From Bacteroidales bacterium (GTDB taxonomy: Bacteria; Bacteroidota; Bacteroidia; Bacteroidales; UBA932), in NCBI GenBank assembly GCA_024401695.1, contig JAKSKN010000005.1:99796-163795 (forward strand): a stretch of DNA of 64,000 nucleotides, written 5' to 3'. A program made the position numbers and the translations under genes. Below, piece by piece: positions 29,047 through 58,289 of the stretch (position 1 is the stretch's first letter; each line of letters opens with the position of its first letter). Below the pieces are notes generated by a model, which saw nothing but the letters and a program-made list of their open reading frames with translations, was not told where the DNA came from and did no database searches.

Positions 29047-29121
29047 AGAAAAATCATCAATATACTTGCGTAAATCATTGTTTTTCACTATCTTTACATA
29101 TAGAAAGAAAGCAAAAAAACA

Positions 29122-31515: not shown

Positions 31516-33273
31516 TTAGAATGAGGCAACAGGAAGTATCATTGGGCCTGAAAAAAATCGTGATGAGGAACTCTTCTCAGTATTAAATAGTACTGATGAG
31601 ACTACTAAATGGGCGCTGTATGGAGCCCCATTCTCATCAATGCTCGAGGACCATATTCCGTCCAGTGTATGATAAGATGATAGAATCATCTTACGCTGTT
31701 CTGGCATTATAGATTTTTCTATGGACTCTTTGATCTTCACAGACGGTCCATACTGATTGTCCGGTGTTGCCTCAAATATATTGAAGAATAAATCTATTAA
31801 TTGTTGTATCGTTGGTAGATACCACCCACTCGTTTTTCCTTTGGGCAATGGAAAACTGCTTTTTATCATGCTTGCTTGATATATTGCATCGAAAAGAGGA
31901 TTATCCTTAATGATGTCAATATTACATTTAACATAACCACTTTTAGCAGCTTCAGATCCAAATGAGGTAATATAGTGTCGAATATCAGTTTCACTATCTT
32001 TCGAGAAATCTGCGGGAAGAGGAATTGTCAAATCACCCCAACCGCCAGACCTGGGAAGAAGATACTCTTCCATGGCCGATACAATACATCCATGTGACCA
32101 CCCTTTTTGAGCATCAGATTTATCCGGCTTTGTAGAGAATACAATCCCTATGCATTTCTTATTACTTGCCTTTACATGTGATAATGTCCCATCTTCATAA
32201 AAGAAATCCCCAATCTTCACATTTGAATAGTCATCAAAGAAAAGAGTATCAATACATTCATTGATAGGCGTGGTTTGGTTCTCTTTTACGTCCACAACTG
32301 TCTTGAACTCTGTTCCTTCTTCAGTTTTGACCGAAATAAATTTCTGGCCTATTGGCACATCACGTATTATCATTGGAGAACACCCGACGCTCCTCCCATT
32401 CAAATAAATATTTGAGCCCACTGGAGAAACGTTCACACTGACACTACCGGTAATAGGTTTCAGCGAAGAAAAAACAACATCCTGATTACTGTCAATCACC
32501 TGTCTTTTGGTTAATGGATAATACTTGTCTTTTCGCGCTTCAAAACAATGATCCCCTTTTGACAACTGACCTTCCCAAAAACCTCTTCCTACATTTACTC
32601 TGTCGACAAAAATCTCTGTATCATCTTCTTCTGTTGTGATTGTTACCAAATGTCCGGAGGCAGATTGTTTTAGCAAATTAATGTCCAACTTTACAGACTC
32701 TGTTTCAGTCAGTTGAACCTTACCGTCTTCGTGAAATGGTAGTTTTTCCACCTTATAGCTATGAAGTCCAAGTGGCAGTTCCCCCACCCAAACGCCATTT
32801 TGAGTTACCTGAATTACATCGTCTATGTATAAATCCGAATTCTTCGGCGAGATATTAACGATTAAGAATTGAGTTATTTCGGAGTTCGCATCTTTATTGG
32901 CATCTTCCTCGACTTTCTGTTCATCTGGACTTTGAGAAAAAATTCCCATGGAATACAGGAATCCGCCAAAGACGTAGTTAACAAGGTCTTCCTTGTAGCC
33001 TGAATTTGTGCAGAATGAAGAAGAAAGTTTAGCGATTTGGAGTTTAATTTCTTCAGGACTTTTCTTTGTTCTGAAAAGGCCGTGAGGGCTAGCCACATTA
33101 ACTACATTGCTGCAAACACCTTCCTCAATCATTGATTTGAGAATTTGTTTTGCTGCTGGAAAATCGCTGAACGCGTTGTAATCTAAAAGCATATTAATCA
33201 CTTTCATATCGGAAATGATTTTTATGCCATATTGTTTGACGATAGTGGCCAGGGCTTTGTTGAACGTATTCAT
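31516..33273 (-). CDS. Shared N-domain, PEGA repeats and Lcl/DUF1566-like C-domain
   Basis: 585 residues, last gene of the long operon. Residues 1-110 are the shared domain also found at 41237-42439 and 42448-43170 (YKEDLVNYVFGGFLYSMG). Three PEGA-type beta repeats follow (about 150-195, 208-265, 270-330; for example SNIYLNGRSVGCSP and IFVDRVNVGRGFWEG). The C-terminal half resembles the Lcl/DUF1566 domain, with GWYLPTIQQLIDLF and a late IWSSS. PEGA and Lcl domains are usually carbohydrate- or surface-associated, yet no signal peptide is visible. The function is unknown; the shared domain suggests it is an output of the same signalling system. Confidence 0.7.
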   Translation of the reverse strand: MNTFNKALATIVKQYGIKIISDMKVINMLLDYNAFSDFPAAKQILKSMIEEGVCSNVVNVASPHGLFRTKKSPEEIKLQIAKLSSSFCTNSGYKEDLVNYVFGGFLYSMGIFSQSPDEQKVEEDANKDANSEITQFLIVNISPKNSDLYIDDVIQVTQNGVWVGELPLGLHSYKVEKLPFHEDGKVQLTETESVKLDINLLKQSASGHLVTITTEEDDTEIFVDRVNVGRGFWEGQLSKGDHCFEARKDKYYPLTKRQVIDSNQDVVFSSLKPITGSVSVNVSPVGSNIYLNGRSVGCSPMIIRDVPIGQKFISVKTEEGTEFKTVVDVKENQTTPINECIDTLFFDDYSNVKIGDFFYEDGTLSHVKASNKKCIGIVFSTKPDKSDAQKGWSHGCIVSAMEEYLLPRSGGWGDLTIPLPADFSKDSETDIRHYITSFGSEAAKSGYVKCNIDIIKDNPLFDAIYQASMIKSSFPLPKGKTSGWYLPTIQQLIDLFFNIFEATPDNQYGPSVKIKESIEKSIMPEQRKMILSSYHTLDGIWSSSIDENGAPYSAHLVVSSVLFNTEKSSSSRFFSGPMILPVASF

Positions 33274-33289
33274 AGTATTCGGGATTGCT

Positions 33290-34045
33290 CTATTTTGCTA
33301 TTTCGTCCTCGCCTTTCTTTTGTGACCGAAGCTCATCAAGGTAGCTCGCAGTAATGACACCCGAAGGAAGCGCTATCACGGCAACACCGAATAATGAGGA
33401 AAGCATACTGACGCAACGGCCAATATCGGTTACAGGACACAAATCTCCGTATCCTACAGTGGTGAGGGTTACTGTGGCCCAATACAATGCATCAAAGAAA
33501 TCCGAAAATGTTACAGCCCCAGTATTCGGATTAATATGCGGTTCTACATTGAACATAATGAGAGCAGTCAAGAAAACATAGAAAACGGCGATAACCAGTA
33601 CGGATAATAACACGTTCTTCTCTTTTTTTAGTACCCTCATAAATATTGTTATCTTATTCGAATAACGAAGGAATTTGAAAACACGAAGTATTCTGAGTAA
33701 ACGGGTCACCCTGAATATCTTGAATCCCTGACCAAGAACATTGAAACCAGGAAGGATTGACAAAAGGTCAATAATAGCCATTGGGGTGAATGGATACAGG
33801 ATAAAAGACAATCCTTTCTTCTCAATCTTATAATCAGCAGTGAACCACCTAAGAAGGTAATCGATGATGAAGAATGAAACCGTGACTATTTCAACATACT
33901 TAAACCACTTTAGTTCTTCTACGAACATAAGTGGTACGATGCTTATAATAATCGCGAGGAACATTGCAATGTCGTATACAATGCTTCCAGTATCGCCTTT
34001 TTGGCCTTTTTCAACGATTTCAAATATTCTCTTTCTCATATTCAA
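33290..34045 (-). CDS. Voltage-gated-type potassium/ion channel protein
   Basis: 251 residues with six hydrophobic helices. The fourth carries regularly spaced Arg residues (FRVTRLLRILRVFKFLR), the voltage-sensor pattern, and the pore holds the potassium selectivity filter TTVGYGD. Belongs to the ion-transporter superfamily (Kv/KCNQ-like bacterial channels). In an operon with a kinase, phosphatase and nuclease it may be a membrane-depolarising effector or a sensor of depolarisation. It lies nine bases after the DUF3320 gene. Confidence 0.9.
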   Translation of the reverse strand: MNMRKRIFEIVEKGQKGDTGSIVYDIAMFLAIIISIVPLMFVEELKWFKYVEIVTVSFFIIDYLLRWFTADYKIEKKGLSFILYPFTPMAIIDLLSILPGFNVLGQGFKIFRVTRLLRILRVFKFLRYSNKITIFMRVLKKEKNVLLSVLVIAVFYVFLTALIMFNVEPHINPNTGAVTFSDFFDALYWATVTLTTVGYGDLCPVTDIGRCVSMLSSLFGVAVIALPSGVITASYLDELRSQKKGEDEIAK

Positions 34046-34054
34046 TAAGCGAAA

Positions 34055-35983
34055 TTAGATGTTTGAATAGATTCCATTGCCACGCACGGATAATATTCCA
34101 TGAGTTTCACCATAAAGGATGCCATTTTCCATAGCCGCAACCACATTGGTGCCTAAACGAGAAAAACCGAATTCGTTGGCTGTATCGCGAATAACGAAAT
34201 CTTTATCAGTATTCCCCGAACAGTCAATATTGTATGCCATACAGTTTGCTATTTCCTGTGGAGCTATATCAAGGGCATCTCGATTTCCACCCTTTCTATA
34301 AGCCTTATAATTATCTGGCCTGGTATTGTTAGACCAGAAAAATAATTTTCCATCCGTAGTCGTTAACAATTTCATGTCAATAAGAATAGAAACCAATTTT
34401 TCATTGAGTCTTGCGCTCACGCGAGAAATACCCATCGCTGCGCATATTCGACGATTCAACAAGTCTCGGCTAATTGGAGCCTCCTGATCAATCACACTTT
34501 GGATGAATGCCTTTATTTTGCTTATAAACGCAGCATCACTCTCTGGGATTGTTTCAGTTACCATATATTCTTTGTACTCAATTTCTCCGTATGATGAACT
34601 ATAACCATCTTCTTGGGTGCTATCCGGCTCTATGCTTGGCTGCATTCCTGAGGACTTTATTTCTTCCAGCATTGACGCATAGTTTCTTGACACTTTAACG
34701 GTACTCATCAGATTCCGAATAGATTCATCAATGGCAGTCTGAATTTCGCCGTTATCATGAATTGTTGCTGCAATTAGTTTTGCATCGTCGATAGATATTT
34801 CAATAATATCTGAACGTTTTGGTGTTACTGGTTTCTGAAGTGGTTGTGCTGCATTCTTGATAATTGCGTCAACTTCTTTGTTATATTGCCCTATATGAAT
34901 ACGTCGTAGCCCGTTGACATCATCAATATCAAAGTAGTGATTGAATGACAGTGCGGATGCGTATAGGTCAATATAGCCTGAAAGTATTAGCTGCTGGAGT
35001 ATATCCCTGTCGAATTCTATCCATAACAAGCCAAGGGCAGCGGGTAATTCCACAAGGGAAACCCTGACCTTTTTTATATTCAATGCAAGGCTGAAACATT
35101 TACTGGCAAGGTAAAATGCCAGGCCTAGGTAAAACTTTGTCTTTTCTAGTTTGAGATCTTTTCCCGGCTTGCTTTTTATGCTTATTTTACCTGTAGCATA
35201 TAGCTGAGCGGTTTCTCTTGGAATTGGGACATCTACGGGAACATCAACAACCAGATTCAGGAGTCCATCCTTTTGATTGTAATCTAGTTCAAAAGGCAAG
35301 CTTCTAAATGGAATATTCTTATCTTGAAGTGTATCGGTTATCTGTTGCTTAACGTATTCATCTGGGCCGTATATCCTATTTTCAAGATCTGTTTTCGTGC
35401 TAATAAACTGCTCGTAATATGCTTTATTCTTTTTTGCCGCTAGGATAGTCTCGACATAGTCATAGTAGGTAACCACTTCTTCCCAGTGCCTAAGCCTATC
35501 TTGGTACATGGTTTCAAGATTCTCTGAGATGTATTTCTTCTTTGCGGAGGTATTGCTGGAAAAAAGGCGGTAAAACTTTTTATCGGCTTCTTGAATCAGT
35601 TCTTTCTCAACAAGCGCTTTAGTAGGCTGAGGTTCGGGGCAAGGTCGCTTGGAATATGTTTCGGGGCAGAGTGAATGAAGTCGTTTCTGATATATAACAT
35701 CAGACTCGATTTTTACGCACTTTGAAGCTATCATTGTGAATGCATCTGTAGCAGAGGAATATGCATTCATCATTTGCCGAGTAACCTCATTAATGGCAGA
35801 CTTATAATATACGCTCCTCCTGGCAGTAGCATCAGTTACCCCATATGGGACATCGATCATATAATTGCCAAGAAAGTCAAGCGTCAACTTCGCAGAGTGA
35901 TAACGGTCATTGAGCAAAAATGATTTCTGGATATTTCGTGGCACCTCGCAAGTGTTACCAAAGAACGTTTTTTTAACTTTCAT
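34055..35983 (-). CDS. Large protein with C-terminal DUF3320 domain
   Basis: 642 residues, no signal or membrane segment. The N-terminal two thirds are helical with a charged coiled stretch (about 110-220) and are not recognised. The C-terminal ~130 residues fit DUF3320: EAPISRDLLNRRICAAMGIS, then FFWSN, RDALDIAPQEIANCMAY and FGFSRLG. DUF3320 usually sits at the C-terminus of giant DUF4011 helicases in stress and defence loci. Here the helicase part is absent. A nucleic-acid or protein contact role is possible. Confidence 0.6.
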   Translation of the reverse strand: MKVKKTFFGNTCEVPRNIQKSFLLNDRYHSAKLTLDFLGNYMIDVPYGVTDATARRSVYYKSAINEVTRQMMNAYSSATDAFTMIASKCVKIESDVIYQKRLHSLCPETYSKRPCPEPQPTKALVEKELIQEADKKFYRLFSSNTSAKKKYISENLETMYQDRLRHWEEVVTYYDYVETILAAKKNKAYYEQFISTKTDLENRIYGPDEYVKQQITDTLQDKNIPFRSLPFELDYNQKDGLLNLVVDVPVDVPIPRETAQLYATGKISIKSKPGKDLKLEKTKFYLGLAFYLASKCFSLALNIKKVRVSLVELPAALGLLWIEFDRDILQQLILSGYIDLYASALSFNHYFDIDDVNGLRRIHIGQYNKEVDAIIKNAAQPLQKPVTPKRSDIIEISIDDAKLIAATIHDNGEIQTAIDESIRNLMSTVKVSRNYASMLEEIKSSGMQPSIEPDSTQEDGYSSSYGEIEYKEYMVTETIPESDAAFISKIKAFIQSVIDQEAPISRDLLNRRICAAMGISRVSARLNEKLVSILIDMKLLTTTDGKLFFWSNNTRPDNYKAYRKGGNRDALDIAPQEIANCMAYNIDCSGNTDKDFVIRDTANEFGFSRLGTNVVAAMENGILYGETHGILSVRGNGIYSNI

Positions 35984-35986
35984 ATG

Positions 35987-36727
35987 TTACCTCCTCCAAT
36001 CTTTTGCATTATATGTGGTCTCCGCTTTTTTTTCGATAGAATCTGGGATGAGTGAGAAAAAGTCAAAACCTGTCTTCTTTTCAACCTCATCAACAGGACA
36101 AGCATAATCATAAATGCTTCCCTTAACATCCCTGTTTGGAAATATAAAACCTATTGTAAAGTATATGCCATTGACGTTCTTGCATACCACTTTGAAGAAA
36201 CCATCAGGAACGGCAACCGCATTTTCTCCAATAGTGTCAAATGTCTCTCCCATTATTGGGCCACATACAACATATACATTTCCCTGCGCTCTGGCCCAAT
36301 CTCTAACTGCTTCTTCTAATCCGAGCCATATTCCACCATTTAATCCACGGTCTTGAGGACAAATATTTGAGAGATAAAAGCTTTCTGTCATCGTTCTTTC
36401 ACTCCACTTCATATCGGCCGCAGGTGCCATATGACCTCTATCCCAACCAGAATTACTGTAATCATACGTCGTCGCCGTTCTCCCCTTAACATCTGGATCA
36501 GGGCAAAAAGCACCTCTGCGAGGAACTGTACCCTCAACTTCTGTTGACGTAAGCTCGTATGCTACCCAGTTAGGGATGAGCCAGTCCTGATTATACGACA
36601 CCGTGTAACCTGTATGAGTGATAATTTGCTCGGTACATTGCTTCTTACGTACCGGTATTTCCATTGCCTGAGCAAATGCAAATACCGGGATGAGGAAATA
36701 CAATATTATCAGTGCCGTCTTTTTCAT
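35987..36727 (-). CDS. Secreted DNA/RNA non-specific endonuclease (NUC1 family)
   Basis: 246 residues with a signal peptide (MKKTALIILYFLIPVFAFA). The beta-beta-alpha-metal nuclease motif is present as WDRGHMAPAADMKW (the DRGH motif with catalytic His), with supporting SNICPQDRGLNGGIW that gives the metal-binding Asn. Predicted to cut DNA and RNA in the periplasm or outside the cell. No immunity-like protein is recognisable beside it. Four bases separate it from the DUF3320 gene. Confidence 0.93.
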   Translation of the reverse strand: MKKTALIILYFLIPVFAFAQAMEIPVRKKQCTEQIITHTGYTVSYNQDWLIPNWVAYELTSTEVEGTVPRRGAFCPDPDVKGRTATTYDYSNSGWDRGHMAPAADMKWSERTMTESFYLSNICPQDRGLNGGIWLGLEEAVRDWARAQGNVYVVCGPIMGETFDTIGENAVAVPDGFFKVVCKNVNGIYFTIGFIFPNRDVKGSIYDYACPVDEVEKKTGFDFFSLIPDSIEKKAETTYNAKDWRR

Positions 36728-36732
36728 ATTCT

Positions 36733-37830
36733 CTATATGTTACCAACCATAGAAAGCAAGTTCATAATAAACCAGCTATCAAATCCCTGGAAAGTCAAAC
36801 GCTTAGCGTTACCGTCTTTGTGAACTTCTATTCCGTCAGAATAAGGAGTGATACCTACAATCTTATTAAATGGTACTTTATTATTCTTCTGTTGTGAATA
36901 GAATATCAAGTTCTTGTTGGTGACTATCAAAGCACCATTCCCTTCAAGATTCATTCGACTATGCTCAACCGGATGGCCCTTGAACTGTCCGACCCTATAT
37001 GTAACTCCTTTGCAAACTCGAAAACTAAAACCACCGCTACGTCCAACTGTCTCTCGTTCAATTTTTTCCATGTACATGGAAACACCATTATAAGCCCACA
37101 GAACGTGTTCGTTTTTAGCCAAGATTATAGGAAGTTGAACATTACAAACAGGATATATACCATTCTGCAGATCCCGGAGGACCGCAGCCTGACCGACTTT
37201 TGCAATATCAGAGTCCTGATACTTTGCAGGAAGGTTGGAGATCGAGATACCAGTTTTTGCGACGAAATCATCTATATGTTGTTGCTCTGATGCTGTCAGA
37301 ACACCATCCTTCATGAAGTTGACAGATGCCTTTTCAAGCATCTCCATATAAATATCGTTCTCAAGAGAACTGCTAATCGGCAAAGTCTTCATAATCCTTT
37401 CACATCGACTGAAGGCTTTGTCCAATGGCAGAACATCCGTAAAGAAGTCAGCAATGAATCCCTTCATCAACTTTGTCGCAATAGAATCAAGAGAACCTTT
37501 TGAATTCAACGCTGAATAAGATACGCCAGTAGCAGAAATGAAGTCACTAGTAATACCAAGTATTGAAGCAGGAAATGGTCTGCGCAGGGTCTGGCAATAT
37601 GTGTTTATCGCATCTCCTCCCAGACGTGCGACATCATCGTTGGAAACGAAGTATTCATTCTTCTTACTCTGTATAGTACTACTAACAACGGATGCAGTTT
37701 TCGCACCTTTGAAGTAATCAGAAAACACAGCAAATAACTCAGAGCAAGCTCTATTATGCCTCTCTTCGCACTCTTTGTGGACGCTGGAAAACAGTCCAAC
37801 GCTCTTGCCGCAATACTTACAAGTTCCCAT
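36733..37830 (-). CDS. Zinc-ribbon protein with C-terminal PH-like domain
   Basis: 365 residues. The N-terminus is a short zinc knuckle: CKYCGKSVGLFSSVHKEC. A helical middle (about 60-220) includes KDGVLTASEQQHIDDFVAKTG, which resembles a TerB-like or EF-like helical module. The C-terminal ~110 residues look like a bacterial PH/GRAM fold: ALIVTNKNLIFYSQ, KVPFNKIVGI and FQGFDSWFIMNLLS. Such proteins appear with TerY-P type clusters as membrane-lipid or scaffold factors. Function inferred from architecture only. Confidence 0.6.
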   Translation of the reverse strand: MGTCKYCGKSVGLFSSVHKECEERHNRACSELFAVFSDYFKGAKTASVVSSTIQSKKNEYFVSNDDVARLGGDAINTYCQTLRRPFPASILGITSDFISATGVSYSALNSKGSLDSIATKLMKGFIADFFTDVLPLDKAFSRCERIMKTLPISSSLENDIYMEMLEKASVNFMKDGVLTASEQQHIDDFVAKTGISISNLPAKYQDSDIAKVGQAAVLRDLQNGIYPVCNVQLPIILAKNEHVLWAYNGVSMYMEKIERETVGRSGGFSFRVCKGVTYRVGQFKGHPVEHSRMNLEGNGALIVTNKNLIFYSQQKNNKVPFNKIVGITPYSDGIEVHKDGNAKRLTFQGFDSWFIMNLLSMVGNI

Positions 37831-37833
37831 ATT

Positions 37834-38700
37834 TTACAATGCTTTTATTCCGTTAAACTCTTTTTTCGATGTGCCAAATAAGCCACAACACTCACATTTC
37901 AACGAACATGCGTTACAGCAATCAGCATATCTTACTTTCCAGTCTGATATGCTGTGCTTTGAGAAGCGTCTGGCATCTTCACGAAGGAGGCACAATGGGA
38001 TATTGAAAATTGCTACGTCCATTCCCCAGTCCGCGAGCCTCTTTACAGCCTCCCCTAAAGAATCCTTATATTCCTCCGGTTCAATCCAAATCTGTTTTTC
38101 GTTGGCAATAGCATATCCCGTATGTTCCATTCCCATATATGCGACCCAACTCACAAATGGAAGATTCTTGTAGATGAACTCTGACATCAAGGGGAGCCTA
38201 TAAGCATTTATAGAGTTGATGACCACACGAAGCTCAATCTCGACGCCAGCAGCGTTCAGGTTGTATAAACCGAGCATTGTTTCGTCATAGGCGCCATTAA
38301 CTCCAGCGACGAGATTATGATCACCCACATAATCAGAATGAAGTGGTATGCCCACAAATAGGTTATCACCACCAACTTCCTTCATTCGCTTAGCGTATTG
38401 ACTGTCTGAGAATCTACGGCCATTACTCAATAGTTGAATCGCAGTCTCTGGAAGTTTGGAACGGATCTTCTCGATCAAAATAAAAAGCTTATCTCCCAAA
38501 AGAGTTGGCTCTCCACCAGTAATGCCAACTACTTTTATTCCTTGAGGCGCATTATCTATAGCTTTAAGGTTCTTTTCAAGCAGATCATCAATGTCATCCT
38601 GATGCAAAGGTGGCTGGCAACACATAATGCACCTATTGTTACATTGTGCTGTAACGAACAGGGCATTATCATTTGACTCTATATTCCACTCAAACCTCAT
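37834..38700 (-). CDS. hxsC: His-Xaa-Ser system radical SAM maturase HxsC
   Basis: 289 residues from the ATG at 38700, which overlaps the hxsB stop (ATGA). The radical SAM cluster motif is CNNRCIMCC (CX3CX2C, Cys 20, 24, 27), followed by the HxsC-typical QPP and VVGITGGEPTLLG. C-terminal Cys residues (CCNACSLKCECCG) may bind further iron-sulfur clusters. Known role of the family: predicted modification of HxsA together with HxsB. Chemistry unproven. Confidence 0.88.
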   Translation of the reverse strand: MRFEWNIESNDNALFVTAQCNNRCIMCCQPPLHQDDIDDLLEKNLKAIDNAPQGIKVVGITGGEPTLLGDKLFILIEKIRSKLPETAIQLLSNGRRFSDSQYAKRMKEVGGDNLFVGIPLHSDYVGDHNLVAGVNGAYDETMLGLYNLNAAGVEIELRVVINSINAYRLPLMSEFIYKNLPFVSWVAYMGMEHTGYAIANEKQIWIEPEEYKDSLGEAVKRLADWGMDVAIFNIPLCLLREDARRFSKHSISDWKVRYADCCNACSLKCECCGLFGTSKKEFNGIKAL

Positions 38701-40094
38701 GACAACCAAGATTTAAAAATTGGCAGCACTTCATCTTCCCTATCTACCAGCAAGGAAATAAGGTACTCGATGATTGCCTTATTCTTCTTGCACAATGCGG
38801 AGTTGTATCGGATTCCATACATATCCCCCTGGGTAGAATAGTTCCTTACGGGGTCGGCTCCACAGTATGGTCTAACTGGACAATCAGAACATCCGGCCAA
38901 ACATTCATTTGACCAGACTTTTGCGAATGCCCTAGCTTTTTCGCCAAAGAATAAATCTTCGTAAGAATCCGTTACCTTTCCTAGTTTGAAGGTATAGTCA
39001 TTGAACTCTGCCAGCATTCTAGACTCATCAGAAGCATATACGTTACCATCATAGTTATAGACGATAACAGAATTCAAGATTCCAGCTGGAGATTGTAAAT
39101 CAACAAAGCCCGTAGTGAATGGCGTAAGAATCTTCCGGAGAAGTATAACTGCATACTCTTCCATGAAGAATTTACCGGCTTTGTTTATATCCAGGATATG
39201 TTCAAAAGCTGTTTTATAGAATGTAATGAACTGATCTGTGTATTCATCCCAATTGTCATTTTGAGTTGCTAAGCCGTATGGGTTAAGCGCCCTCAAGAAA
39301 ATACTGTTGAACCCCAATCTTACATACTCGTTCACTATCTCAATTGGATAATGAACGCCAAAGGTGGATGTAGTCATAAGTGCGGAAACGCGGTCTTTCC
39401 CAAGTTCTTCTCGTGCTATTTCAATACCCTTAGTTACTCTATCATAGCTACTATCCTGGCCTCTGTTGTGATTATGGATAAACTTTGGCCCATCCAATGA
39501 GGTTGAAATTACGATATTGTACCGCTTGCATAGCTCCAGAACTTCATCAGTTAGATTCACGCAATTTGTGCAAAGCACATACGTTAGATGGCGTTTCTCT
39601 TGGAGATTAATCTGTTCGGCCAACTCTATTCCGTATCGTATAAGTCCAGGCTCAAGCGATGGTTCACCGCCCTGGAATTCCATCGTTAGATACTCGGATT
39701 TTGATTTGAACATGAGTTTCACCGCAGCATCCATTGACTCTATTGACATAGAGCAATGCTTATTTTCGGCTGCACGACTGGACGCTTGACAATAGATGCA
39801 GTTTTGATTACAACGCAGTGTCAACACAAAGATATGGAGGGCCGTTCCTGCTCCGAGAAAACTTTTCTTGGTTTTCAACCTGCTGGCATAGATATCCAAT
39901 GTTCCAGGGATATCACCTTCATATAAGAAATAGTTTGCGACAAGTGATTTGTACAGTTCCGCATCTATATCCTCGTGGTTGATTATTCTTTCCACGGTTC
40001 CTCTAGGCGAAACTAATAGATCGCCCAATTCATTCACCAGAACTTCTTTTTCTTTAAACCTGGTGAAATTGAAAGGAAGCAATCTATATTTCAT
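38697..40094 (-). CDS. hxsB: His-Xaa-Ser system radical SAM/SPASM maturase HxsB
   Basis: 465 residues. N-terminal ~80 residues form a RiPP-recognition-like region, then radical SAM motif CNQNCIYC (Cys 95, 99, 102) and EFQGGEPSLEP. The C-terminal SPASM/Twitch region has CLAGCSDCPVRPYCGADP and a last Cys in SALC, which would hold auxiliary clusters. Close in plan to maturases that build cyclophane cross-links in triceptide peptides; that chemistry is inferred, not seen. Overlaps hxsD by 11 bases. Confidence 0.9.
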   Translation of the reverse strand: MKYRLLPFNFTRFKEKEVLVNELGDLLVSPRGTVERIINHEDIDAELYKSLVANYFLYEGDIPGTLDIYASRLKTKKSFLGAGTALHIFVLTLRCNQNCIYCQASSRAAENKHCSMSIESMDAAVKLMFKSKSEYLTMEFQGGEPSLEPGLIRYGIELAEQINLQEKRHLTYVLCTNCVNLTDEVLELCKRYNIVISTSLDGPKFIHNHNRGQDSSYDRVTKGIEIAREELGKDRVSALMTTSTFGVHYPIEIVNEYVRLGFNSIFLRALNPYGLATQNDNWDEYTDQFITFYKTAFEHILDINKAGKFFMEEYAVILLRKILTPFTTGFVDLQSPAGILNSVIVYNYDGNVYASDESRMLAEFNDYTFKLGKVTDSYEDLFFGEKARAFAKVWSNECLAGCSDCPVRPYCGADPVRNYSTQGDMYGIRYNSALCKKNKAIIEYLISLLVDREDEVLPIFKSWLS

Positions 40095-40389
40095 TAATAT
40101 CCTCCTCAGTTATATTGTCACAGTCAGAGAACGCCTTGACGTACAGAATAGTCCTGATGTCTTTGGTTTCTTCCTTGATTTTCTCACGAAGCTTATAGTC
40201 ATTTAAACTGCTCCAAAATTCGTTTTCTATGAACAGATTTGGTATAGCTACATTCATCGCCTCAATTGTGACAGTCTCTTCATTTTCTCCCGAAATAGCT
40301 CTCGAACAGGTATACTTCTGTCCAAGCCAATACAACGTATTAGCGATACACTCATCGGAGTAGATTCGTCTGTCAACTTTAATTGTCAT
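40084..40389 (-). CDS. hxsD: His-Xaa-Ser system protein HxsD
   Basis: 101 residues. Matches the small HxsD family in length and in its C-terminal pattern (LREKIKEETKDIRTILYVKAF) and in starting with a beta strand plus YSDECIANTLYWLG. HxsD always travels with HxsB and HxsC and could act as a peptide chaperone or recognition partner. Overlaps hxsA by four bases. Confidence 0.85.
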   Translation of the reverse strand: MTIKVDRRIYSDECIANTLYWLGQKYTCSRAISGENEETVTIEAMNVAIPNLFIENEFWSSLNDYKLREKIKEETKDIRTILYVKAFSDCDNITEEDINEI

Positions 40390-41234
40390 TTTGCAGCTGC
40401 TTTAAGTCTAGCGATTGTTGTAGAATCAAGATTGCCTGTTACTGGTAGTTTACTATAAGCTTGGAACATCTTGATAGCCATCGTGATATCCTCAGTCATT
40501 TTCGGCTTACCGTTTTCATATTCAAGTTTAGCAGGATCAGGTGCATAACCAGCTTTTGAAAGTAATTGTATTAATTCGGCGACATCAGTGCCGGAATTAC
40601 CAACGACAAGATCTCTAACGCCAAGGACAACAGTAGTTTTATTTACATCCCAGACTTTGAGTTGCGCTACCGTCTTTGAATCAGCATTGCCAGTTGCGGA
40701 CAAATTTGCATCCTTTTGAAATCTCATAACAGCACTTTTGACCTTAGCATTGTATACTATTTTGCCGCTACTTTCTGTTAAGTCTGCTTTATTCAAATAC
40801 AGATTTCTAATTAGAAGATCTGTAAGAGCAGATACGTCTGCTCCGTTCATGCCCTGGCTAATAGTTCTTTCTCCAAGAGAATACACCTTTGGGGCCACTG
40901 GCGTAGACATAAAACTAGATGACTTAGTCGAAGAACTACTTGAGCTATAATGGCTTGAGCTATAGTGGCTTGACCCGGATCGATGAGAAGAGTGCGAACG
41001 ATGGGATGAATGTGATCTATGGTCTGCAATATATCTTACACTGCCATTAGTGCCTACTTTTACAACGTCTTTTACAGTTTTTGGCCTAAGTGCATTAAGT
41101 AATTTTTTACTAGAGCCATCGGTTAGGCCTTCTGGATTTGTAGACACTTTTGCCTCTCCACTGTTTGTGTGCAACAATGAGAGTGCGGAGGTAAGAAGAA
41201 ATGTCTTTAGTATCTTTTTCGAGATTTCATTCAT
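40386..41234 (-). CDS. hxsA: His-Xaa-Ser repeat protein HxsA, predicted maturase substrate
   Basis: 282 residues. A signal-like N-terminus (1-28) is followed by the repeat block at 72-104: His at 72, 75, 78, 81 and 84 in exact H-x-S triplets, then HYS at 90 and 95 and a poly-Ser stretch. Two peptidoglycan-binding (PGBD1-type) domains follow (about 112-190 and 205-280). Family knowledge: HxsB and HxsC are thought to modify the His/Ser repeats. So the product would be an exported, wall-binding protein with modified side chains. The first hxs gene in the operon. Confidence 0.92.
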   Translation of the reverse strand: MNEISKKILKTFLLTSALSLLHTNSGEAKVSTNPEGLTDGSSKKLLNALRPKTVKDVVKVGTNGSVRYIADHRSHSSHRSHSSHRSGSSHYSSSHYSSSSSSTKSSSFMSTPVAPKVYSLGERTISQGMNGADVSALTDLLIRNLYLNKADLTESSGKIVYNAKVKSAVMRFQKDANLSATGNADSKTVAQLKVWDVNKTTVVLGVRDLVVGNSGTDVAELIQLLSKAGYAPDPAKLEYENGKPKMTEDITMAIKMFQAYSKLPVTGNLDSTTIARLKAAAK

Positions 41235-41236
41235 GC

Positions 41237-42439
41237 TTACTTGCTTTTATTTAAAACGAAGTTCAGCCAATAATCATCAGGTGCAACCTTAAGCAACTCA
41301 TTCAATGTCTCATGAGTCGTGGCGTCTAGTTTACGTCCCTTCGTCGAAATAGTCATCAATAATGTATTCTTACCATCAGATACAGCGTTAACTATTACAT
41401 CTTCGAGATTCTTCTGTTCACTTTCAAGTGATGAACGCATTGCGTTATCAAATGGATATTGTTCAAATCCTTTAAGCAATTCGCGGGCATCTGCATATTT
41501 GCCTGCTGCAGCCATCTCTCGTGCGGACGCAACTGTCTCATTAAAGAGCGGCGTGATTGCTTCTGTTAGTTTTGTAGTGGCGGCCTTCTTTTTTGACGAT
41601 GGAGCAAAAACACCATCATAACCTTCACCTGCAGAAACAAAAGCTTCAATAGCATCAGCATAATTCCCTTTAGCTAGAGCGGCTTCTCCCGATGCCATGT
41701 AGGAATTGTACTCGTTCAGTTCTTTTGAGGATGCAAAATACTTTATACCTTCAGTTGAGCCAATTAGCAAAATTAGTACGGGCAATATTACTTTTGCGAA
41801 TACTGCTCCAAATTGGCTAGATTTAGTCCTTTGGAACTGGGAGAGGACTTTTTCTTTCTCGGATTTACACCAAGCTGAGTTGTTTTGTCCGAGAGCGGCA
41901 CTGATTATGTCTATCTTATGCTCCACAACCCATAATTCAGAAATCGCTTGAGCTGGATAATAGCCGGATTTCTTGTATAGTCTACCTTCAGGAACCACAA
42001 TTAGGCTGTTGAGCATAGATATGTATTCCTTCTGCATAAGGATCAGCTGCTTATCAAGATCGACACCGGTCAAGTCCTCTGTGTAATCCTTTTTTGCGCT
42101 TTTTTGTCCACTTTGGTTGTATGATGGTTCATCCTTTATCCAACCAAGTCCATACTCAATACACTCAAAGACGTATTTTACAAGATCTTCCTTGAATCCA
42201 GTCTTACTAGCAAATTCGGAGACATATGACTGCATCTTATTTTGCCAAGGAAGATTAGAACTATACAGATACAAGGCTTTTTCGCCATATCCTTGTGCAA
42301 CAAATTCTTTAAGAACTTGCTTTGAAGCAAGCGCTTCCTCATAGCCTGAATAGTCTGACACAATATTATGGATTGTATTACGTAAACATTCAGGACCTAT
42401 ACTCTGTATTGATTGGTATATTGCGGCTGATAAAGTCAT
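41237..42439 (-). CDS. Shared N-domain, transmembrane helix and TPR-like domain
   Basis: 400 residues. Residues 1-100 are the shared domain (TGFKEDLVKYVFECIEYGLG). A charged helical region follows (about 115-205), one transmembrane helix (about 213-233, VILPVLILLIGSTEGI), and a TPR-like region with ALAKGNYADAIEAF and AAGKYADARELLKGF. Topology suggests cytoplasmic N-domain and periplasmic repeats that could touch HxsA. Two bases upstream of hxsA, so tightly coupled. No known family. Confidence 0.6.
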   Translation of the reverse strand: MTLSAAIYQSIQSIGPECLRNTIHNIVSDYSGYEEALASKQVLKEFVAQGYGEKALYLYSSNLPWQNKMQSYVSEFASKTGFKEDLVKYVFECIEYGLGWIKDEPSYNQSGQKSAKKDYTEDLTGVDLDKQLILMQKEYISMLNSLIVVPEGRLYKKSGYYPAQAISELWVVEHKIDIISAALGQNNSAWCKSEKEKVLSQFQRTKSSQFGAVFAKVILPVLILLIGSTEGIKYFASSKELNEYNSYMASGEAALAKGNYADAIEAFVSAGEGYDGVFAPSSKKKAATTKLTEAITPLFNETVASAREMAAAGKYADARELLKGFEQYPFDNAMRSSLESEQKNLEDVIVNAVSDGKNTLLMTISTKGRKLDATTHETLNELLKVAPDDYWLNFVLNKSK

Positions 42440-42447
42440 GTAAGATA

Positions 42448-43170
42448 TTATTCGGCGTAAACAATAATTTTAGCAATGTCGGATGGCATATAGCCTTGAA
42501 TATGAGGGTTAACGTTGTATACACCAAAGGACTTATGAGTATTTGAGTCAACATAAGTAGAGCTGACATCTATTATAGAGTTGTCAAAACCATATGAAAT
42601 GACTTTGATGCACATGAACTCTTTTAATTTTCCGGTAACTTCGACATTACAGTAGTAATAGAAATCTTTATCCTTAAATGAACGATCCCATACGCAAGAG
42701 ATGTTAGTGAATTGCACTCCAAATGAACTCAATGAATCATTCTTAAGCTCTACAATAGAGGAGAAATATTGATTGATGTCATTAACAGATGCATTATTCC
42801 CTAGTTTAACCTTGGCTCTGTGAGGATGCATAGGAGGCACTGTTGGATTCTTAACACTACATTTCTCTATTGTGTTTTTCCACCCAAGTCCATACGCTAA
42901 ACTCTGGAAAATCGTCCAAACAATATCTGGTTGGAATCCGGTACTACTTGCAAACTGACCACTCAACTGCTGAGCTGCCATATCCCATTTCGTACATTGA
43001 AGTAGTTTCTTAGAGTATCCATCATCAATGATTGCTCGCATTACATACTTTGATGCGGGAATGGCATCAAATGCCTGAAAGTCGCATAGTATGTTTACTA
43101 AGCGACCTTCAGTGATGATGGAAGGGCCATCAGTCTTCACTATATTCCTCAGTGCAAGGTGTAACTCCAT
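42448..43170 (-). CDS. Shared N-domain protein of 240 residues
   Basis: Residues 1-100 are the shared domain (TGFQPDIVWTIFQSLAYGLG), preceded by FDAIPASKYVMRAIIDDG as in the other copies. The C-terminal half is beta-rich (VSDINQYFSSIV, then FTNISCVWDRSFKDKDFYYYCNVEVTG spread over strands) and is not recognised; it may be a ligand- or phosphopeptide-binding fold. It overlaps the end of the PP2C gene by 41 bases, which supports a functional link. Confidence 0.55.
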   Translation of the reverse strand: MELHLALRNIVKTDGPSIITEGRLVNILCDFQAFDAIPASKYVMRAIIDDGYSKKLLQCTKWDMAAQQLSGQFASSTGFQPDIVWTIFQSLAYGLGWKNTIEKCSVKNPTVPPMHPHRAKVKLGNNASVNDINQYFSSIVELKNDSLSSFGVQFTNISCVWDRSFKDKDFYYYCNVEVTGKLKEFMCIKVISYGFDNSIIDVSSTYVDSNTHKSFGVYNVNPHIQGYMPSDIAKIIVYAE

Positions 43171-44398
43171 CTACTTCTTCATCTATCTTGTCAGCCACAT
43201 GTTCAATGACCTCGGCTGTTGGTTCTTCAATAATGTTATCAACTCCTATCTCGTCAGAATAAGGTACAAAGTCTTCACCATCTCGTTCCTGGAGAAGGAT
43301 ATCTAGCTTCTTCACAAGATTCCTTTTTTGCAAGAAAGCCCTATCGAGGTCATTCATTGCATACTGTAACTCAATCTTTGTTTTGTCGCTAGAAATAAGT
43401 TTCCTCTGGAGAGCATCGCGTTTGTTTTTTAGATTAACTATTCTCACATTGATGTCTTCCACTGCAGCCATTACATTAGATACCTGCCATTGGACAAGAC
43501 TCTTGTACAATGCCTTCAGATCGCTTTTGTCATAGACGCAGGCAACCGACATGTCATCTCTACTGCCAATCTTGCTGAGCTGAGGAAGTGTCTCTTGTAA
43601 TGATACCTCTGCCTTTTCCCTTGACTGTAAGACTATTTCCTTCGCAAGTTGAATGTAGAAGTTGACCATATTGGTTGTCTCGCCAAAAGAGTCATCAATG
43701 CCATCTGACCCAAGAAATACTGCAACTGGATAGTTCCCTTTTCCTTGATAACAGTATCTGAATTCATTTATGGCATCTGAATCGCACAACGATGTGGTTT
43801 TATTAAGGAAACATCGTTCATCCCATGGTATCGGTTCACACCATATTGGGTCTTTCTGGAGCGCGATACATTTGCCATCTCCAAGATGGAATGCGAACCA
43901 ATAATGTTTCGCTCTTACGAATGCCATCAAAGTACATCCATAGGTCTTTTCAAGGTTCTTCTGCTGCGAAAATTCATCGAGATACTTCTGTTCAACATGC
44001 TCCGTTTCCCATTCGCTTATTGGAGTTGCGCCAGCATGTTCAAGTATCTTTTCATTCCACTTGAAGATTATTGACGAGAATAATTGTCTAAACAGCTTAT
44101 CTATTTCTGTCTCCTTATAACCTTCTGGCAACTCTTTGATTGGCCCGACTGCCGTGAATGGCTTATCCCTAAATATGTCAGAATCAATGTTCTTTACGAA
44201 CATACGAACTGATTCTTCTGTTATCTCGGCAGCGTATTTGGCACCAATATCGCTTCTGAAATATCGATTCCCGCCGTGGCCATCGCACACGATAGCCACC
44301 GTCGTTCTTTCTCTGGACGACGCAAGCGAATAGTCTTGACAGACTTTATTATCCGCCTTATGACTTTCACCTTGGCAGGTAAAATTCAGATATTCCAT
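43130..44398 (-). CDS. PP2C-type serine/threonine phosphatase with coiled-coil tail
   Basis: 422 residues from the ATG at 44398; a TTG five codons upstream lies in the vWA stop region. Phosphatase motifs: CQDYSLA, AIVCDGHGG (metal Asp), FHLGDG, FLGSDGIDD and SRDDMSVA. The C-terminal ~130 residues form a coiled coil with an acidic end (VDNIIEEPTAEVIEHVADKIDEE in pieces). In TerY-P triads the PP2C reverses the kinase. Five bases separate it from the vWA gene. Confidence 0.9.
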   Translation of the reverse strand: MEYLNFTCQGESHKADNKVCQDYSLASSRERTTVAIVCDGHGGNRYFRSDIGAKYAAEITEESVRMFVKNIDSDIFRDKPFTAVGPIKELPEGYKETEIDKLFRQLFSSIIFKWNEKILEHAGATPISEWETEHVEQKYLDEFSQQKNLEKTYGCTLMAFVRAKHYWFAFHLGDGKCIALQKDPIWCEPIPWDERCFLNKTTSLCDSDAINEFRYCYQGKGNYPVAVFLGSDGIDDSFGETTNMVNFYIQLAKEIVLQSREKAEVSLQETLPQLSKIGSRDDMSVACVYDKSDLKALYKSLVQWQVSNVMAAVEDINVRIVNLKNKRDALQRKLISSDKTKIELQYAMNDLDRAFLQKRNLVKKLDILLQERDGEDFVPYSDEIGVDNIIEEPTAEVIEHVADKIDEEVDGVTPCTEEYSED

Positions 44399-44403
44399 AT
44401 GTT

Positions 44404-45144
44404 TTAATCCCAATCGTCAGAGTATGAACTGCTATCTACCTGAGTCGCAGCCTCTGCACCATCGATATTTTCAATCTGAGCTTTTACTTCTTCTACAACT
44501 TGATCCTGTTTTGTGGCATCACCTGCACTACTGCTCTTACTGCCAATCTGTGACGATGTAACTGCAACGACACGAATAATCTGCTTGAGTGCATCAATGT
44601 TGTGTACTGTGAACACAGCCTCATTCGAGCCAGTAAATTCTTCAAGAACTTTAAGATCAGCATCATCACCGATTGCAATTGCGACCTTGATGGCTGCCTT
44701 GAACCAGTTATTGTTCTTCAACTTAGAAATGCCAGTTTTATAATCATCAGTTGGGCCACCATCAGAAAGGAGGATGATGGCTGGAGCAAATGAGCCACTT
44801 GCTGCCTGCATGAATCCACTACGAGATAATTTTGTATTAAGTTCCGAGCAAGCCTCCCCAAGTGAAGTCAATCCACCAGCTGTAACATCCTGCCATACAA
44901 ATTCCGAAGCGAGTTTTGGCTCCGAATATAGCCAACTTGCTCCATTAGAGAATTCAAGTGCAGCAACCTTGATTTCGGCATCAGGATTGGTCTCAGAAAT
45001 CTCATCCAACATAGGAAGCACGTTTACAACTGCATCATTAACGGCTCCAATTTTGTTGCCCATCATACTTCCTGATGTATCAATCATGAAGAACAGGGTC
45101 ATTGTTCGGCGTGGTACGCTTACTACTTCATCAAGTAAAGACAT
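44404..45144 (-). CDS. TerY-like von Willebrand factor A protein
   Basis: 246 residues. The metal-ion-dependent adhesion site is complete: FMIDTSGSMMGNK (DxSxS), the Thr in AGGLTSLG and the Asp in LLSDGGPTDD. Such cytoplasmic vWA proteins act as metal-responsive scaffolds in tellurite-type stress clusters. The last 45 residues are an acidic Ser/Ala-rich tail. It lies between the kinase and phosphatase genes, the classic TerY-P order. Confidence 0.9.
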   Translation of the reverse strand: MSLLDEVVSVPRRTMTLFFMIDTSGSMMGNKIGAVNDAVVNVLPMLDEISETNPDAEIKVAALEFSNGASWLYSEPKLASEFVWQDVTAGGLTSLGEACSELNTKLSRSGFMQAASGSFAPAIILLSDGGPTDDYKTGISKLKNNNWFKAAIKVAIAIGDDADLKVLEEFTGSNEAVFTVHNIDALKQIIRVVAVTSSQIGSKSSSAGDATKQDQVVEEVKAQIENIDGAEAATQVDSSSYSDDWD

Positions 45145-45167
45145 AGTATTGAAATTTTAATGGTTAT

Positions 45168-46436
45168 CTATGCAATTATTTCTCCTTTGGATATATTTGA
45201 AAAAGATATCTTGATTCCAGTCTTAACTGGCATAAATCCCTTTGGCTCTATTTCTTTGATTTTCCCGCTTGGGGTTTCTGCAGTCCATTTCTGTCCAGAT
45301 ATGTTTTGAATCAAAAGCATTGAGGGATCTTGAGGGTTGGATACAACAAGTGCATCGGCAACGTTGTCATTGTCAATGTAAAGTTTGGTATTCGGAGTTA
45401 GAATAAGGGAACGTGATCCTATTTTGATATATCTATCGATAGAAACAACCTTACCGCAATTCATACATTTGCATTCGTCCGAAGTGGTATCAAGGAATGT
45501 TTCCTCTCCACAAGAAGGGCATACAACAAGAGAATCTCTAACTTTTGCTATAAGTTTTTGCCACTCCTGCTCAATCATTCTTGTAGTAGGATTCTTCAGC
45601 TTTTCCTGACTGAATTGTTGTATAAAATTATCTTTGAGAATCGCCGGGAAGACTGGCCATCTCCTGATAACATTCTGGTGAACACCACGAACTGGCAGAT
45701 TGGATTTATCATTCGGATTGTAAATAAACACTGCTTCACTCCCATAAAACTTCTTCTCATACGACTCTGTCATACATGGGCAAGCAACTACTTTTGCGCC
45801 TTCGAAAGGATGATTCGCGAAGAAAAGCATGAATAATATTACCGACAAGGAAAACCTATCGCTGTATTTGTCGGGAATTCCTCCAGCAACCACTTCTGGA
45901 GCCATATACCTGGCTTTACCCATAATACCGGACTTCTCCCCCTGTGGCATAACGTTATCGTTATCACAAATCAAGACATCTCCGGTTGATGGATCAATAA
46001 AAAAGTTGCCATCGTTAAGATCCTGGTAACTGAAACCAAACCGATGGAGCATCATGAAGCCATCGCAAATCTTCATAGCAGCAGCAAGCATAGCATCAAA
46101 AGACTTGAAGTTTTTCTTCGCTAGAAGGAAATTGCCAAACTCAAAATAGTTTGCTGGACGGAGCTTCATAATATAGCCATAGTAGCCTTTAGTTTTGAGC
46201 GTAAGATATTCTGGCCAAATAAAAGCATCAGAAGGAGCTCCGCTTTGGATGTTTTTCTCAAGATTTTTGTAGAATTTATCTCCAAGAGGGTTGAGATACC
46301 ACTTTAATGCCATTTTTTGGCCACAAAGATCAACAAGGTAAACAATCCCCTGTCCTCCACGGCCGAGTTCCTTAATAACAGTCGCCTGACCACCAATGGT
46401 CAAATCTACTTTACTTCCTGGCTTAAGCTCTATCAT
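45168..46436 (-). CDS. Serine/threonine protein kinase with zinc ribbon
   Basis: 422 residues. Kinase domain (about 1-290): glycine loop ELGRGGQGIVY, Lys in MALKWY, catalytic YQDLNDGNFF (Asp and Asn), the metal Asp in ICDNDN, and KARYMAPEVVAGG as the APE motif. A four-Cys zinc ribbon follows (CPSCGEETF, CKCMNCGK). The C-terminal ~90 residues are beta-rich and could be FHA-like. With the vWA and PP2C genes this makes a TerY-P-like phosphorylation triad. Predicted cytoplasmic. Confidence 0.9.
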   Translation of the reverse strand: MIELKPGSKVDLTIGGQATVIKELGRGGQGIVYLVDLCGQKMALKWYLNPLGDKFYKNLEKNIQSGAPSDAFIWPEYLTLKTKGYYGYIMKLRPANYFEFGNFLLAKKNFKSFDAMLAAAMKICDGFMMLHRFGFSYQDLNDGNFFIDPSTGDVLICDNDNVMPQGEKSGIMGKARYMAPEVVAGGIPDKYSDRFSLSVILFMLFFANHPFEGAKVVACPCMTESYEKKFYGSEAVFIYNPNDKSNLPVRGVHQNVIRRWPVFPAILKDNFIQQFSQEKLKNPTTRMIEQEWQKLIAKVRDSLVVCPSCGEETFLDTTSDECKCMNCGKVVSIDRYIKIGSRSLILTPNTKLYIDNDNVADALVVSNPQDPSMLLIQNISGQKWTAETPSGKIKEIEPKGFMPVKTGIKISFSNISKGEIIA

Positions 46437-46458
46437 TTTCGATTATACTTATTTCAAA

Positions 46459-46821
46459 TTAAAAACCACCACCCTTCAAATCAACACTTTCAATGTCTGT
46501 GACATCTCCAGAGAATCCACATTGAGGGCAAGAAACACGCCTCTGGCCATGATAACAGATTACGCTACCGCAGTTGCCACAGAATACAAAATTCTTTGAT
46601 CCACAATATGGACAACCTGGATACTCGGAGTCTGTTGAAACTGTTCCGCGAACATGTTTCTCATCGTAACCTTCCTTATGAGCTTTTGACTTGTCAATAG
46701 GAAAAGCCCAATGGAAAACAAAGTGATTAGAACCAGCTTTATCCACAGTGATTCCATATGTTTTTTTTGCTTCTGGGCAGACAGCCAGTATCGCAAATGC
46801 TTCGTTGCTCAATTTCGACAT
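46459..46821 (-). CDS. TerY-C-like zinc-ribbon protein
   Basis: 120 residues from the ATG at 46821; the open frame continues to a TTG further up but the extra 12 codons sit in the promoter zone. The N-terminal part is a small alpha/beta region, the C-terminal half a double zinc ribbon: CPYCGSKNFVFCGNCG and CPQCGFSGDV. It matches the metal-binding module usually fused behind TerY vWA domains, here as a free protein and the first gene of the operon. Confidence 0.7.
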   Translation of the reverse strand: MSKLSNEAFAILAVCPEAKKTYGITVDKAGSNHFVFHWAFPIDKSKAHKEGYDEKHVRGTVSTDSEYPGCPYCGSKNFVFCGNCGSVICYHGQRRVSCPQCGFSGDVTDIESVDLKGGGF

Positions 46822-46865
46822 GTCCTTAGTTTTAGGAGGGTTGCAAAATTCAATCAAATTAGAGG

Positions 46866-58040: not shown

Positions 58041-58065
58041 AGCGGTAAAAACTACCGCAAATATA
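58041..58065 (-). promoter_or_regulatory. abiE promoter with initial hairpin
   Basis: Minus strand: TATATTTG (58065-58058), then GCGGTAGTTTTTACCGC just before the ATG. The hairpin GCGGTA/TACCGC lies at the predicted 5' end of the message and could be the AbiEi operator. Confidence 0.6.
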
Positions 58066-58289
58066 AACAAAAATTAACAAACTAAAGATAAGTCTGTATA
58101 AATTGCAGTAGGAGGATAAACCTGATGACATCATTCAAACCGCTACAAATTGTAACGGTTTCAAAATCCTTTTTGTACCTTTGCCCCTTGAGGTCTGATG
58201 CCAGACTTCATTTGTTAACACCTGGGCGGTTCCCTCTTCGTGAGAGAATCGCCCTTCTCGTTCTATTTGTTTCATAGAAGTTAGGAGTT

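Follow-up and report, generated by a model that had tools for sequence, protein, structure and literature searches.

A TerY-P phospho-switch and a His-Xaa-Ser maturation system in one conserved Bacteroidales operon: a possible envelope-surveillance defence system

Why should a single operon join a TerY-P phospho-signalling triad to a His-Xaa-Ser (Hxs) maturation system, a nuclease and an ion channel? The question is raised by a 64,000-nucleotide stretch of DNA from a Bacteroidales bacterium (assembly GCA_024401695.1, contig JAKSKN010000005.1, positions 99,796 to 163,795 of the forward strand), called the window here, in which 15 minus-strand open reading frames (ORFs) run from 46857 to 31516 with intergenic distances of -41 to +23 nt. 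An earlier note had read these genes as one operon and named their families, and the ORFs and the Pfam and NCBIfam matches agree with it. The answer favoured here, with a probability that we put slightly below one half, is that the operon may encode one integrated defence (conflict) system that surveys the cell envelope. A defence-type role is suggested because the same signalling chassis elsewhere carries ZorA2, ZorB2 and ZorE2, or ProA, and envelope surveillance because the window operon offers the three properties of Zorya from unrelated protein families.

The phospho-switch lies at the head of the operon. ZnR (46459..46857) is a TerY-C-type zinc-ribbon protein of 132 residues with three CxxC motifs (PF15616, 39.5 bits against a cut-off of 28.4); its start is possibly the TTG at 46857, and an in-frame ATG lies 12 codons further downstream at 46821, where the earlier note had let the gene begin. 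KIN (45168..46436) is a Ser/Thr kinase (PF00069, 54 bits; YQD and DND motifs) with a C-terminal zinc ribbon (CPSC..CMNC from residue 306) whose ribbon-family Pfam matches are sub-threshold, and the PD-T4-6 kinase models of PADLOC match it, from 1.7e-12. The von Willebrand factor A (vWA) protein VWA (44404..45144; PF00092) has the metal ion-dependent adhesion site motif DxSxS as DTSGS, and the PP2C phosphatase (43130..44413; PF13672, 89 bits) has the DGHGG, SDG and RDD motifs. As in the TerY-P triad of Ter/CoCoNuT systems, vWA, PP2C and Ser/Thr kinase stand in adjacent genes with the kinase fused to a zinc ribbon (PMC11090510, in the passages drawn on here); the window operon adds the separate TerY-C ribbon protein, partner proteins with a common domain called SD, and Hxs. 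Membership of CoCoNuT itself is rejected, as the McrBC-type GTPase, CnuH helicase and CnuE HEPN are absent from the Pfam matches of the 15 genes.

Two SD proteins and the Hxs genes follow, all of them on the same minus strand. SD240 (42448..43170; SD profile E 1.6e-37) has a C-terminal part of unrecognised family and no Pfam match at E 10, and SD400 (41237..42439; SD profile 4.2e-35) has a putatively cytosolic SD, one predicted membrane helix (residues 210-228) and a TPR-like C-terminal part. HxsA (40386..41234), rich in His and Ser, contains seven H-x-S units and two PG_binding_1 domains (PF01471, 68.6 bits over 2 stretches). HxsD (40084..40389; TIGR03976, 77.5 bits, cut-off 50), the radical SAM/SPASM maturase HxsB (38697..40094; TIGR03978, 554 bits, cut-off 370; CNQNCIYC) and the radical SAM maturase HxsC (37834..38709; TIGR03977, 330 bits, cut-off 268; CNNRCIMC) all score above the curated cut-offs for the known Hxs system. 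The window system differs from it in its HxsA, which reaches only 53.6 bits with TIGR03979 (cut-off 121.65) despite the seven H-x-S units and which carries two peptidoglycan-binding domains, and in its coupling to a phospho-switch, a channel and a nuclease.

The last five genes, again on the minus strand, encode putative partners and outputs. ZRPH (36733..37830, 365 aa) has a zinc-ribbon-like start (CKYC), a DGxxTxxEQ motif in the middle and a GRAM/PH-like C-terminus; the zinc-ribbon half of its earlier description is visible, while the PH-like half corresponds to GRAM and bPH_3 matches that are sub-threshold. Homologues in L018, L019, L046 and Prevotella pE2-28 are 45-46% identical (L and G numbers designate loci and genomes). 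NUC (35987..36727) is an EndoG/Serratia-type nuclease (PF01223, 187 bits; DRGH) with a signal-peptide-like N-terminus that is hydrophobic in a hydropathy scan; among PDB sequences it matches EXOG at 1.8e-28. D3320 (34055..35983; PF11784, 42 bits) has a conserved N-terminal region and a C-terminus that resembles the tail of ProA-type helicases, with 30% identity over 213 aa to the tail of an SD-ProA protein in L061 and a PADLOC match to the PDC-S37 C-terminus; it has no convincing match among PDB sequences (best E 0.61). CHAN (33290..34045; PF00520, 106 bits) is a Kv-type channel with a TVGYGD filter, and its best PDB sequence is KCNQ1 (1.6e-20). The SD-PEGA protein (31516..33273; SD profile 1.4e-32; PEGA, 49 bits) ends the operon with its third SD copy. 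In Pfam terms the 15 genes thus hold TerY_C zinc ribbon, Pkinase, VWA, PP2C_2, PG_binding_1 (twice, in HxsA), Radical_SAM (twice), Endonuclease_NS, DUF3320, Ion_trans and PEGA families; the kinase, vWA, PP2C, radical SAM (CX3CX2C), nuclease and channel motifs are those expected of such proteins. A side observation on ZRPH (36733-37830) is that a DGxxxxxE motif is present both in it and in the c65 protein of L027 (8336-9046). The motif is reminiscent of TerB, for which Pfam showed no match.

The gene order is conserved well beyond the window. The order ZnR-kinase-VWA-PP2C-SD-HxsA-HxsD-HxsB-HxsC is common to the window and to L017 (Candidatus Sodaliphilus), L018, L019, L025 and L046, as judged from tblastn and ORF maps. 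Since L018 and L046 are near-copies, these six loci represent five lineages, between which HxsB is 64-70% and the kinase 58-73% identical. D3320 follows in all triad loci except L017, where the contig ends, and a nuclease gene lies nearby in all but L017. A kinase of this type (E 1e-20) is present in 6 of 22 Hxs genomes, always within the Hxs locus, and the other 16 are without it. Among 295 Bacteroidales genomes HxsB occurs in 14 and a close relative of the kinase in four (E 1e-40); the kinase and a close-type HxsB occur together in two (two of the four kinase genomes and two of the five with such an Hxs system; Fisher p 0.0014). In a class sample of 395 genomes the only close kinase relative is the window's own (E 1e-60). 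The conserved linkage on which the earlier note had staked its proposal, to be checked by genome co-occurrence, is therefore present. Chance neighbourhood on a mobile island, which would suit the low GC and the integrase, IS66 and AbiE genes of the window, is rejected as barely credible: the order is kept in five lineages, the kinase of Hxs genomes is always in the Hxs locus, and the adjacency statistics given below contradict it. Two contigs (L022 and L033) were dropped from the counts, being second contigs of the L021 and L025 metagenome-assembled genomes (MAGs) with the same region, and neighbours can be missed because some Hxs loci, such as L017, L020 and L026, end at contig ends. The repetition of one gene map on two contigs per MAG (L021/L022 and L025/L033) may be an assembly artefact or a duplicated element.

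The component that ties the switch to its partners is probably the SD domain, a region of about 100 residues at the N-termini of SD240, SD400 and SD-PEGA that has no Pfam match; the earlier note had seen the shared domain but counted two carriers instead of three. An iterated profile run over the ORFs of the fetched loci finds 16 copies, every one of them encoded in a TerY-P operon. Those loci were chosen for Hxs or for the kinase, and the unbiased test is a profile search of the 295 genomes. At E 1e-5 SD occurs in three of these, namely the window's own with its three copies, G178 and G201, all of which are kinase-positive (hypergeometric p 9e-7 for the association). Since at most 15 first-look candidates were scored per genome, a weak copy could have been missed. 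SD proteins accompany the Hxs-coupled switch of ZnR, kinase, vWA and PP2C in all six loci, and a profile search finds no SD in kinase, vWA, PP2C or ZnR. Locus L044 is instructive: its Hxs locus keeps D3320, HxsADBC and a homologue of SD400 from which exactly the SD domain is missing, and a search of the genome at E 1e-20 finds no kinase of this type. Because SD tracks the kinase genomes and the SD400 homologue of L044, which lacks SD, stands in a genome without the kinase, we infer from these sequence patterns that SD is a docking tag of the TerY-P switch.

SD400 is the protein in which this tag meets the membrane. A hydrophobic helix is found near residues 210-235 by hydropathy scan in the window, L018, L019, L025 and L046, with a second match inside SD in L019. 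The flanks of this helix are richer in Lys and Arg on the N-terminal (SD) side in six of seven homologues and equal in L046, and the C-terminal part gives a sub-threshold TPR_14 match. In L018 the channel gene is followed by a gene (15614-17740) for a 708-residue protein that has a membrane helix at its N-terminus and SD at its C-terminus. A plasmid search with the SD of SD400 was empty, although plasmid pE2-28 holds five copies, which are reachable by profile alone, and against PDB sequences SD gave no convincing match, the best being an engineered protein with no single stretch that passes alone.

Small domains repeated on several proteins of one operon have been described as effector-associated domains (EADs) and proposed as coupling adaptors (Kaur et al. 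2020, PMC7159879, in the passages drawn on here). SD resembles them in its several copies per operon, three in the window and five in pE2-28. It differs in that no copy is fused to a core component (kinase, vWA, PP2C or ZnR) and in that the copies of one operon are not closer to each other than to others; SD240 of the window is 50% identical to SD231 of L017 and 26-29% identical to its own operon's mates. SD has no Pfam match, and it is set beside EADs by description and not by EAD alignments. The same passages describe GAP1-N2 systems, which contain a vWA protein, a PP2C and a kinase-zinc ribbon, and they count a radical SAM domain as one of the effectors in FtsH ternary systems. In these vWA ternary conflict systems a radical SAM enzyme is likewise joined to a vWA-centred system; that vWA system is a different one (MoxR/FtsH), and HxsABCD are not mentioned in those passages. 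The building blocks of the window operon are thus of known kinds, while the union of Hxs with TerY-P and the SD domain appear to be undescribed in the openly licensed literature. Among the matches listed from that literature no paper joins Hxs and TerY-P, in keeping with the novelty that the earlier note had supposed for the combination.

The chassis is not confined to Hxs. Plasmid pE2-28 of Prevotella sp. E2-28 (L068) has the operon head ZnR-kinase-VWA-PP2C as in the window, five SD proteins, two of them annotated FtsK, a ZRPH homologue 46% identical to that of the window and, in place of Hxs, ZorA2 (5.5e-157), ZorB2 (1.8e-80) and ZorE2 (8.6e-68), as identified by PADLOC. The annotated ZorA starts about 45-60 positions into the PADLOC models, so this copy is possibly misannotated or truncated. 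G201 encodes a fusion of SD with a protein of 2302 residues that scores 2049 bits (cut-off 1500) with an NCBI family named 'anti-phage protein ProA'. Triad and SD occur together without Hxs in L061 and L068. Triad and SD proteins together form an exchangeable chassis, which has cargo other than Hxs as well, and the triad is not obligate for Hxs. Three gene runs belong to this subject. In L068 (17624-37041) the triad, the five SD proteins, ZRPH, ZorA2-ZorB2-ZorE2 and a UvrD-like helicase form one run. G211 (L062) has another TerY-P combination, in which a coiled-coil ZorA-like protein, a MotB/ZorB-like protein, a second vWA protein and two CHAT-TPR proteins come after the triad, the PADLOC scores of the ZorA- and ZorB-like proteins being weak. 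A more distant kinase-vWA-PP2C run on a Methylomonas plasmid (L069:11989-14900) has a kinase 35% identical to that of the window and no SD or Hxs matches. Phages yielded a single weak kinase match.

These cargoes bear on the proposal that the operon is an envelope or metal stress response without any connection to phage, in which a His-rich modified HxsA binds metal or senses wall damage, TerY-P responds, and the channel and nuclease serve to re-establish ion balance or to salvage DNA. TerY-P triads, whose association with restriction systems has been described, have been hypothesised to be metal-sensing phospho-switches (PMC11090510, in the passages drawn on), HxsA is indeed rich in His and Ser, and NUC and CHAN are ordinary families able to serve physiology, the channel being found without Hxs too. 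On the other side, apart from the TerY-type proteins Pfam recognises no ter gene, metal transporter or efflux gene among the 15, the chassis elsewhere stands with ZorA2/B2/E2 and ProA parts, and a kinase distribution as patchy as four of 295 genomes suits defence better than housekeeping. A stress response is therefore considered unlikely, at something like the level of a serious outside candidate. The original Ter paper is reportedly that of Anantharaman et al. 2012.

Nuclease and channel genes cluster with Hxs also where the triad is absent. In 11 of 19 genomes a NUC homologue is encoded no more than some 10 kb from hxsB, against 0.26 expected, and a close-type channel in eight of 19, against 0.11 expected; in the 14 of these genomes without the triad, NUC stands beside hxsB in six and the channel in four. 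Since the expectations assume random placement, these numbers speak for clustering and not for function. The sample comprised 19 of 20 genomes, as G375 and G780 have identical coordinates and were treated as one; it did not include the genomes of L017, L023 and L031, and the adjacency flags were set by hand. Channel neighbourhoods from genomes that have the channel but no HxsB (L080-L085) hold no other homologue of the window's operon genes; in L080 the c65 protein of L027 finds a weak match.

The export-type N-terminus of NUC is what would favour competition with other bacteria, an option raised in the earlier note, with HxsA and NUC acting on neighbouring cells in the manner of a bacteriocin. 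However, no secretion system, export peptidase or immunity gene is recognised by Pfam among the 15 genes, and the wall-binding domains would keep HxsA on its producer, so that this explanation is highly improbable. Of the two roles that the earlier note had offered, defence thus keeps the support of the chassis cargoes and competition does not.

For the integrated defence system favoured here, Zorya provides a functional parallel. Zorya depends on ion flow and on the attachment of ZorB to peptidoglycan, and ZorE is the effector nickase of type II (PMC11890865, in the passages drawn on). The peptidoglycan-binding, ion-conducting and nuclease parts of type II Zorya are properties also offered by the window operon, whose channel is Kv-type and whose nuclease is EndoG-type and export-type, of unrelated families. 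Membership of Zorya is rejected, as no Zor model is found among the PADLOC matches of ten window proteins, a set that does not include ZnR, SD400 or HxsA-D; the MotA, MotB and OmpA families are absent from the Pfam matches of the 15 genes. The proposed sequence of events would begin with modification of the H-x-S region of HxsA by HxsB, HxsC and HxsD, followed by export of HxsA and its attachment to peptidoglycan. SD400, whose gene immediately precedes hxsA, would be a transmembrane reader that senses wall-bound HxsA or its disturbance and passes the signal to the kinase/PP2C/vWA switch, which would make the decision. SD domains would gather the effectors, and the outputs may be ion flux through the channel, DNA degradation by NUC outside the cytosol and a nucleic-acid step of unspecified kind by D3320. 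HxsA, the channel and NUC would then fill the places of ZorB, ZorA and ZorE in the sister operon of pE2-28.

That this amounts to a new class of anti-phage immunity, with a radical-SAM-modified, peptidoglycan-bound HxsA as envelope sensor, SD400 as its reader, a switch that assembles effectors through SD, and Hxs, channel and nuclease as isofunctional replacements of ZorAB-ZorE, is a more doubtful proposition than the integrated system itself and is offered tentatively. If true, it would give the Hxs system a function; the passages of the Hxs literature covered here assign none, and conserved coupling to a defence-type phospho-switch makes such a function testable. The exchange of ZorA, ZorB and ZorE for HxsA, channel and nuclease would be a clear sensor-effector swap on a kept signalling core. 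SD would explain how one switch can serve a ProA-type helicase, FtsK-like ATPases, a membrane linker and a PEGA protein, and it is usable as a search handle for further systems.

A number of observations weigh against one integrated system. ZRPH and the channel are present in the window, L018, L019 and L046 but missing from L025. The nuclease and channel that the earlier note had placed in the operon do belong to it in the window, but in four triad loci (L018, L019, L025 and L046) the nuclease gene is read from the other strand. The channel occurs in eight of the 295 genomes, six of them without HxsB, and a channel specific to Hxs is rejected on that ground. No TerY-named PADLOC model is among the KIN, VWA and PP2C matches (E 0.01) in a library whose content was unchecked for one. 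Modification of HxsA by HxsB/C/D and its export are hypothetical; its N-terminus looks like a signal peptide by eye, but a hydropathy scan at 1.6 flags no segment in any of six HxsA proteins. SD is not found in G211, the fourth kinase genome of the 295, or beside the Methylomonas triad, both of which have distant triads.

The phylogenetic evidence also pulls away from a single inherited unit. In a tree of 30 HxsB rows (built without L034-L037, L056 and L040-L043, the last four being weak or short loci), the six triad-linked rows fall within one clade of nine (bootstrap 89, Shimodaira-Hasegawa-like approximate likelihood ratio 99). Three rows of that clade (L020, L021 and L044) have no triad, the triad label requires four changes on the tree, of which well-supported branches impose at least two, and shuffled labels do as well as the observed one in 29 of 500 cases. 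These changes mean that losses or exchange have occurred. Correlations between Hxs and triad gene divergences, with the L018-L046 pair removed, range from 0.19 to 0.84, weak support for strict co-evolution. The chassis kinases without Hxs are as close to the window's (71% in L061, 72% in L068) as the Hxs-linked ones (65-73%); from these identities and the HxsB tree, strict co-inheritance of Hxs with the kinase, and with the triad as a whole, is rejected.

Part of this evidence would be accommodated if a defence chassis of TerY-P type and a separate Hxs-channel-nuclease module with another function came to share a transcript in one clade with no direct mechanistic link. Hxs stands with NUC or CHAN and without the triad in L021, L027 and L030, the triad and SD stand without Hxs in L061 and L068, and the triad label changes on the HxsB tree. 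This reading is nevertheless rather improbable, given that the gene order is kept in five lineages, that the kinase is nowhere outside the Hxs locus among the 22 Hxs genomes, and that SD400 spans both sets, its membrane/TPR part occurring with Hxs alone in L044 and its SD part only with the triad. An integrated system, assembled on an exchangeable chassis, remains the reading that we favour.

The surroundings of the operon fit a defence-rich integrated element. GC is 0.39-0.42 per 2-kb step at 32-48 kb, against 0.46-0.59 at 2-32 kb, and ranges from 0.40 to 0.57 to the right of the operon (48-64 kb). A phage-type integrase gene (22859-24226) and IS66 genes (28675-30906) lie to the left of the operon, an AbiEi/AbiEii toxin-antitoxin pair (56381-58070) and a Schlafen-type (SLFN-g3) helicase (60718-62898) to the right, and a divergent HNH_3 gene (46980-48065), with a PADLOC homing-endonuclease match, stands directly upstream. 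The left part of the window has genes with DnaA, LptD, Rho and FtsH families. The mobile element supposed by the earlier note is consistent with the integrase and IS66 genes nearby, but neither end of it was located, and the contig stops where the window does. The left neighbour gene is present in eight of 11 genus genomes, seven besides the window's own; an empty site was sought in three of those seven, whose contigs end soon past that gene and, save for AbiEii, weakly matched in L102, match none of the element genes. Scanning the window for Rfam families and tRNA genes gave no match. A Bacteroides-type promoter pattern matches three times in the window and never ahead of the operon, and sigma-70-like and terminator-like sites show no excess over shuffles.

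Hxs loci with other neighbours were also seen. Of 405 plasmid records matching HxsB, 14 were viewed (one of them unannotated, six with 5-kb flanks), and the 13 annotated loci, all outside Bacteroidales, list no Ser/Thr kinase-vWA-PP2C set, their gene tables being incomplete. Two of the 13 have Hxs by a nuclease of another family: a thermonuclease-family gene adjoins hxsC in Methylobacter (L105:12591-13307) and lies near hxsC on the opposite strand in Nostoc (L107:12982-13518). In three Hxs loci without the triad (L027:341-7545, L028:38-7239 and L030:1541-8725), HxsADBC are preceded by genes for a 310-residue protein, a Tubulin_2 protein and a papain-like protease, assigned by Pfam in L027 and by cluster in the others, and this set looks like a second regulatory chassis for Hxs.

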